Shown here: positions 32,483 to 32,693 of the stretch, piece by piece
Position numbering within the stretch: the first letter of the stretch is position 1
Layout: the number at the start of each line of letters is the position of its first letter
Source of the DNA: Microcaldota archaeon
GTDB lineage: Archaea; Micrarchaeota; Micrarchaeia; Micrarchaeales; Micrarchaeaceae
Length of the DNA stretch: 32,693 nucleotides
Reading direction: 5' to 3'
Assembly (NCBI GenBank): GCA_021797495.1
Contig: JAJZZO010000001.1
Span: 47,533-80,225, forward strand
Program-made: the position numbers and the translations under genes
The notes under the pieces: generated by a model
What the model saw: only the letters and a program-made list of their open reading frames with translations
The model's database searches: none
Told to the model about the DNA's origin: nothing

Positions 32483-32693
32483 CGAGGTGATCTATCCGCA
32501 GGTTCCCCTACGGATACCTTGTTATACCTTAGCCCACCTCGCGAAACCTTAGTTCGAAAACGCCATCGGCGCTGCCTCACTAAGACCTCACTTGGGTGGC
32601 TTGGTAGGCGGTGTGTGCAAGGAGCAGGGACGTATTCACCGCTCGATAGTGACAAGCGATTACTAGGGATTCCAGCTTCATGAGGGCGAGTTT
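32483..32693 (-). rRNA. 16S ribosomal RNA, 3' end (partial)
   Basis: The last 211 bases of 16S read on the minus strand and continue past the window. Recognisable parts: GCACACACCGCC (h44 start), AACAAGGTA, helix 45 (ATCCGTAGGGGAACCTGCGGAT) and the 3' end ATCACCTC carrying the anti-Shine-Dalgarno. The decoding region differs from the near-universal sequence at 1404-1406 and 1495-1497, in a compensated way. No tRNA-Ala or 23S follows within the 165-base spacer before ppa. The spacer holds T-runs (TTTTTGTTTTTAAT) that may end the transcript. The exact 3' end is uncertain by a few bases. Confidence 0.95.

Follow-up and report, generated by a model that had tools for sequence, protein, structure and literature searches.

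This locus raises the question of whether the 16S rRNA decoding helix h44 can exchange three consecutive base pairs, among them the U1406·U1495 mismatch, and, if it can, how such a helix came about. The mismatch has been called universally conserved, organelles included, with trypanosome mitochondria, which have C-G, named as the exception (PMC3101183). Three consecutive compensated pair changes had been proposed in a first-pass annotation of the window, by which we mean the whole 32,693-nt stretch of DNA analysed here (positions 47533-80225 of a contig of 80225 bases). The features concerned are given below, with E. coli position numbers taken from rrsB.

31811-32317, minus strand: inorganic pyrophosphatase gene, the next gene downstream of the 16S gene and on the same strand (Pfam PF00719, E 6e-54)
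32482-32693, minus strand: 3'-terminal 212 nt of the 16S (SSU) rRNA gene (Rfam RF01959, 186.2 bits, model positions 1264-1478 of 1478)
32482-32520, minus strand: h45 and the 3' end, with U-A at 1506-1529 and at 1508-1527 and the anti-Shine-Dalgarno CCUCC changed to CCUCGA (sequence and E. coli numbering)
32521-32530, minus strand: A1492 A1493 G1494 G1495 U1496 A1497 U1498 A1499 A1500 C1501, the upper h44 3' strand, AAGGTATAAC
32602, minus strand: A1408, kept (sequence and E. coli numbering)
32603-32611, minus strand: C1399 C1400 G1401 C1402 C1403 U1404 A1405 C1406 C1407, the upper h44 5' strand and the bases before it, CCGCCTACC

The minus strand reads CACACACCGCCTACCAAGCC, with CCGCCTACC inside at 32611-32603, and GGGCTAAGGTATAACAAGG, with AAGGTATAAC inside at 32530-32521. 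Positions 1404/1405/1406 are U/A/C and 1495/1496/1497 are G/U/A, giving the pairs U1404-A1497, A1405-U1496 and C1406-G1495, next to C-G at 1407-1494, A at 1408 and AA at 1492-1493. The canonical U1406·U1495 mismatch is absent, and C-G is found there instead. The h44 observation is thereby confirmed to the base: the three changes lie exactly where the first-pass annotation had placed them, and A1408, A1492, A1493 and C1407-G1494, which it had described as kept, are kept in the window and in 99/99 sequences of the order Micrarchaeales. Aligned to the archaeal covariance model RF01959, the stub matches the 3' end of the model, with 186.2 bits against a gathering score of 50; the contig end truncates the gene on its 5' side, and the remainder lies beyond it. 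Two RNA families were matched in the window by the Rfam search, which found no 23S or 5S gene in the 32,693 nt; the rRNA genes look unlinked on the pyrophosphatase side of the 16S gene.

With the gene cut down to 212 nt by the contig end and the window's own genome only 89% complete, one might suspect an artefact of assembly or sequencing, or else a pseudogene that has diverged beside a normal, expressed copy. However, the relatives leave this reading with next to no probability. All six genomes of the window's genus with a readable 16S end carry the triple (the genus has eight genomes, the window's own included; in two further genomes the 16S-end pattern had no match), and their agreement across separate assemblies refutes an artefact for the clade. 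The window genome belongs to genus group g1 together with G001, and genome taxonomy and 16S agree on its placement in Micrarchaeales. The G001 genome consists of one contig, 989,838 bases long, and has a single 16S 3' end and a full-length gene carrying the triple. Full-length triple genes were found in G001 (L261, 1333.5 bits), G015 (L262, 1297.6 bits) and G014 (L265, 1134.6 bits), all of them single-contig genomes, G015 (952,257 bases) representing a different genus from G001; a full-length RF01959 match was also obtained in the relative L263. The two-copy genomes G025 and G074 have the identical state in both copies. Moreover, both helix strands change together in every state. In 135 16S sequences (loci repeating an already used genome and the non-rRNA locus G132:C45 were left out), 1404-1497 and 1405-1496 are Watson-Crick in every one and 1406-1495 is always C-G, G-C or U·U, with zero half-changed states.

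Because of the genus-wide agreement, the full-length genes and three pairs that are never half changed, an assembly error, a pseudogene or a normal second copy is very unlikely. As to a normal second copy, one 16S 3' end was found in the window's own genome, which is 89% complete; a whole-model SSU search (Rfam) of this genome gave 0 matches, which we ascribe to the 212-nt stub and regard as uninformative on copy number. G530, A1408, A1492, A1493, G926 and U1498 are invariant in the order sequences, and the gene is intact and single copy in G001, the window genome holding the stub only. Judged by gene integrity, single copy and conservation, the 16S rRNA is presumably functional. Published circular genomes include those of Ca. 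Micrarchaeum harzensis, from PacBio and Illumina data (PMC8975820), and of Mia14, Ca. Mancarchaeum acidiphilum (PMC5498576).

The change proved common to the clade. In a phylum survey of 301 genomes, 164 in the order and 137 outside it, a pattern search detected G or C at both 1406 and 1495 in 100/164 order genomes and in 0/137 other Micrarchaeota, and all 100 Watson-Crick genomes fall in the two families of the window's order. Readable ends came from 114 order genomes, 108 by the general pattern and six C1400U genomes which that pattern had missed; the other 50, many of them fragmentary, had no readable end by these patterns. Among the 114, 1406-1495 is Watson-Crick in 100, with G031 alone having G1406-C1495 and the remainder C-G, and U·U in 14 (G208, seven genomes of g28, G082, G064, G235, G245, G062 and G247). 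The full triple occurs in 22 genomes of 8 genera, namely, g1 (6), g10 (2), g17 (2), g21 (2), g9 (2), g8 (1), g34 (6) and g48 (1). G208 is the one order genome with the usual C1404-G1497/G1405-C1496/U1406·U1495, and the other states in the order, written in the same sequence, are U-A/G-C/U·U, C-G/G-C/C-G, C-G/G-C/G-C, U-A/G-C/C-G and U-A/A-U/C-G. Within the order, A1405 occurs only alongside U1404 and C1406 (22/22 genomes). These data show a graded series of h44 states within a single order, Micrarchaeales, in which the positions are always paired and which ends in the triple. Thus, the triple reported by the first-pass annotation is real, but it is not confined to this genome: it belongs to an order-wide series with several origins. 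The triple was also seen in L089 (Micrarchaeota FK3.bin92), which has the same stretch as G230. Pattern matches in G132:C45, G246 and G249 are not rRNA by their letters and were excluded from the carriers.

The 16S tree was built from 113 rows after masking of the six trait sites; 22 of the 135 sequences (rows shorter than 480 nt, and G301) were left out. It recovered the order as a clade with support 100/100 on a long branch. The fewest changes on this tree are 11 at 1404, 5 at 1405, 5 at 1406 and 4 at 1400, gains and losses not being told apart in these counts, and at least 4 of the 5 changes at 1406-1495 are between U·U and Watson-Crick. Descent of the triple from one inherited event was rejected by a one-clade constraint (p-AU 3e-62).

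Outside the phylum, Watson-Crick pairing at 1406-1495 was rarely encountered. In 292 Thermoplasmatota genomes the U·U pattern matched 150, with at least G887, by its letters, not rRNA among the matches listed; the Watson-Crick pattern matched 1/292, a stretch that is not rRNA. With no rRNA match in the 292 genomes, a 1406 change common to Micrarchaeales and Thermoplasmatota hosts was rejected. The phylum of a Nanohaloarchaea locus (28 genomes, the number with a readable h44 uncounted) gave 1 Watson-Crick match, again not rRNA; the non-rRNA matches G595 and G772 were not counted. In a phylum of small-genome bacteria, probably Patescibacteria, 2/286 genomes searched, G301 and G392, have a real 16S with Watson-Crick 1406-1495 (number with a readable h44 uncounted). 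G301 (L073/L198/L260, MAG YF1.bin83) resembles the window in combining C-G at 1406-1495 with U1404-A1497, and G392 (L197/L266) resembles Micrarchaeales in its Watson-Crick pair, there G-C; unlike the order-wide change in Micrarchaeales, these are isolated cases in their phylum. The single other member of the G301 family examined has U1406 on the strand shown.

A scan of genome contigs for U1404-A1497 returned at least 116 stretches. Among the matches listed, many bacteria and archaea keep U·U, and an additional C-G at 1406-1495 occurs in Micrarchaeota and L073. The bacterium L104 has U1404-A1497 and A1405-U1496, yet keeps U1406·U1495. Because the scan shows these mixed states, the three pairs are unequally rare: 1404 is a common switch, 1405 is rare and 1406-1495 is near-universal. 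Equal rarity of the three was rejected, U1404-A1497 alone being widespread. The first-pass reading needs qualifying here: what is surprising is the loss of U1406·U1495, and after it the change at 1405-1496, U1404-A1497 by itself being common in bacteria and archaea.

The h44 rewiring is part of a wider compensated rewiring of the 16S core. We compared 99 order sequences and 35 from Micrarchaeota outside the order with 29 references, E. coli and 28 from the U1404-A1497 scan; this set, small, mostly bacterial and picked by the U1404-A1497 pattern, is uninformative on 1404-1497 and serves as a yardstick, not a census. The references are constant to 96% or more at 541 positions; the order differs from them in 20% or more of its sequences at 53 of these positions and in 80% or more at 32. 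Pair 18-917 is changed from C-G to G-C in 43/43 order sequences, 341-348 from C-G to G-C in 54/56 and to A-U in the other 2, 963-972 from G-C to A-U in 83/85, and 252-274 from U-A to A-U in 34/45. Other changes are not obviously compensated: C518G (69/71 order sequences, 11/17 Micrarchaeota outside the order), G527A (71/71 and 4/17), C1400U (6/99 order sequences) and A790C (2/76). Position 1529 is changed in 35/35 sequences of Micrarchaeota outside the order. C1402, C1403, G530, G926, A1408, A1492, A1493, U1498 and C1407-G1494 are unvarying in the order sequences read. The canonical h44 of G208 is accompanied by the 18-917, 341-348, 252-274 and 963-972 swaps and by the 518 and 527 changes, so the h44 changes probably came later, on top of an existing fast phase.

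Several further features of these 16S genes were observed. C1400U, at a P-site nucleotide, occurs in six genomes of four genera (L181/L262 in G015, L182 in G038, L177, L178, L179 and L180). L180 (G031), on a long branch, combines G1406-C1495, C1400U and C at 790. The anti-Shine-Dalgarno CCUCC is eroded across the order (window positions 32482-32500 and relatives) to CCUCGA, CCUCAA, CCUAAA and others, and reads CCUCCA in 32/35 sequences with canonical h44; going by these motifs, Shine-Dalgarno initiation may be little used in the order. An insert (intron) of about 510 nt lies at HMM position ~1088 in the 16S of the window's genus and several others (L261, L262, L265), and G014, G049, G064 and G036 have an insert at HMM position ~1363; introns in the ARMAN-2 and Mia14 16S genes have already been reported (PMC5498576).

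We are fairly confident that the window holds the end of a genuine single-copy 16S rRNA gene in which upper h44 was rebuilt by three compensated replacements, clade-wide and probably driven by drift. The driver was most likely compensatory drift in a fast-evolving symbiont lineage with a reduced genome, not a new function. The core of the 16S rRNA would have entered its fast-evolving phase first, with the swaps at 18-917, 341-348, 963-972 and 252-274, and the h44 pairs would then have been replaced, both sides together and with the decoding nucleotides spared. C1406-G1495 would have turned the soft U·U step into a rigid stem, keeping decoding but stiffening the upper A-site stem, and A-U at 1404 and 1405 may have given back part of the extra stability.

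Energy estimates are consistent with such a course. In an excited state of the A site, populated to about 3%, A1492-A1408, A1493-C1407 and G1494-U1406 pair (PMC12314911). By a nearest-neighbour model, which ignores protein, tertiary contacts, A·C and A·A pairs and base modification, the gap between ground and excited state is 1.7 kcal/mol in the canonical U·U stem and 6.0 kcal/mol in every C1406-G1495 stem. Because of this estimated difference, the register-shifted excited state should be about 4 kcal/mol less accessible and nearly absent in the order. The same model puts the upper-stem ground state at -6.1 kcal/mol for CGU (canonical), -12.2 for CGC, -11.2 for UGC and -9.2 for UAC (window). 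That A-U pairs at 1404 and 1405 soften a stem hardened by C-G would fit a compensation of stiffness, although the fit is not proof. In Mycobacterium smegmatis, 1406C-1495G gives recombinants high resistance to gentamicin and tobramycin and leaves them susceptible to neomycin and paromomycin (PMC3101183). By analogy, ribosomes with C1406-G1495 probably decode well enough to live and may resist gentamicin-type drugs, not neomycin or paromomycin.

This drug phenotype invites the reading that U·U was replaced by C-G under selection by 4,6-disubstituted 2-deoxystreptamine aminoglycosides from neighbours, as the high resistance of the M. smegmatis ribosomes would allow (PMC3101183). We regard it as highly improbable: the same lineage also changed 1404 and 1405 and swapped 18-917, 341-348 and 963-972, for which another cause is needed, drug exposure is undocumented in this analysis, and a full pair swap is unneeded for resistance, since U1495C alone already lowers susceptibility (PMC3140962). 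Pure compensatory drift does not account for C518G, G527A and C1400U, which are uncompensated, lie at decoding-related sites and might instead reflect functional remodelling. On that reading, the decoding centre might have co-evolved with an altered partner, such as uS12, a missing or new rRNA methylase, an initiation factor or a reduced tRNA set, the stiffer stem together with C518G, G527A and C1400U forming one altered decoding mode. The clustering of changes at decoding-related 518, 527, 789/790, 1400, 1404-1406/1495-1497 and 1529 argues for this reading, as does the repeated origin of A1405, in the order solely on the U1404/C1406 background. However, changes at 518 (11/17) and 1529 (35/35) are already present in Micrarchaeota outside the order that keep U·U and are for this reason separable from 1406, and changes far from the decoding site are also frequent (53/541 near-invariant positions depart in at least 20%). 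We therefore consider functional remodelling unlikely. It is tempting to speculate, at rather long odds, that across the order the A-site excited state, which depends on the soft U1406·U1495 step, is natively off, and that this acts together with the 530-loop changes C518G and G527A and, in certain genera, with the P-site change C1400U, tRNA selection then being timed unlike that of all ribosomes studied.

The locus represents a known RNA in a form that runs through a whole clade, and it cleanly contradicts the stated universality of U1406·U1495. The flexibility of this mismatch has been tied to aminoglycoside action and to the excited state observed by NMR. Nearly every readable genome of the order is without U·U, and two members have been grown in co-culture, so that the group offers a natural experiment on whether accurate decoding requires the mismatch and the excited state built on it. 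Micrarchaeales ribosomes are thus a natural test of how far the codon-reading site can vary, and several "invariant" 16S core pairs are swappable provided that both sides change.

There is also a practical side. The changed sites overlap the 1392/1406 and 1492 primers, as had been pointed out. Computed over the 135 sequences, the mismatches of 1406F to the triple are its last three 3' bases, and those of 1492R (GGTTACCTTGTTACGACTT) lie 4, 5, 6 and 17 bases from the 3' end, the one at position 17 being common to canonical relatives. In 1392R and 1391R the mismatches are confined to the 5' part, at a distance of 13-15 or 14-16 bases from the 3' end, with one additional mismatch in two C1400U genomes, and primers elsewhere in the 16S gene do not touch the changed sites. 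The predicted mismatches are therefore real, but the suggestion that they would hide the lineage from PCR surveys was too strong. V3-V4 amplicons and custom 16S primers have already served to study Micrarchaeota (PMC6627985), and workers on the group use their own primers (also PMC5498576). Primer and probe design for the group should be corrected, most of all for 1492R and 1406F.

Primer mismatch is known in kind. Mismatches of DPANN 16S rRNA to common primers, with the same practical consequence and at overlapping sites, are already in print (PMC8407392), as are 1392r/1492r mismatches of "G-plasma" at overlapping sites (PMC6336744). Unlike the present analysis, the portions of these two reports available to us describe no paired h44 changes and no loss of U1406·U1495 (PMC8407392, PMC6336744), and within the terms searched the open-licence PMC literature gave no paper on such paired changes in archaea. 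The M. smegmatis A-site mutant 1406C/1495G has the same C-G pair as the window and is viable, with a measured drug phenotype (PMC3101183); it and the mutants U1495C and U1406C/U1495A are laboratory-made, alter one pair and leave 1404 and 1405 untouched (PMC3101183, PMC3140962). A close natural counterpart is the mitochondrial decoding site of Leishmania and Trypanosoma, where, as in the window, C1406-G1495 replaces U·U (PMC3101183). That site belongs to an organelle with a truncated h44 and an altered 1409-1491 pair (PMC3101183), whereas in Micrarchaeales 1409-1491 is A-U, the state of most sequences read from the phylum. Unlike the trypanosome mitochondria, Micrarchaeales present the change in a cellular ribosome and across an entire order, with 1404-1497 and 1405-1496 changed too.
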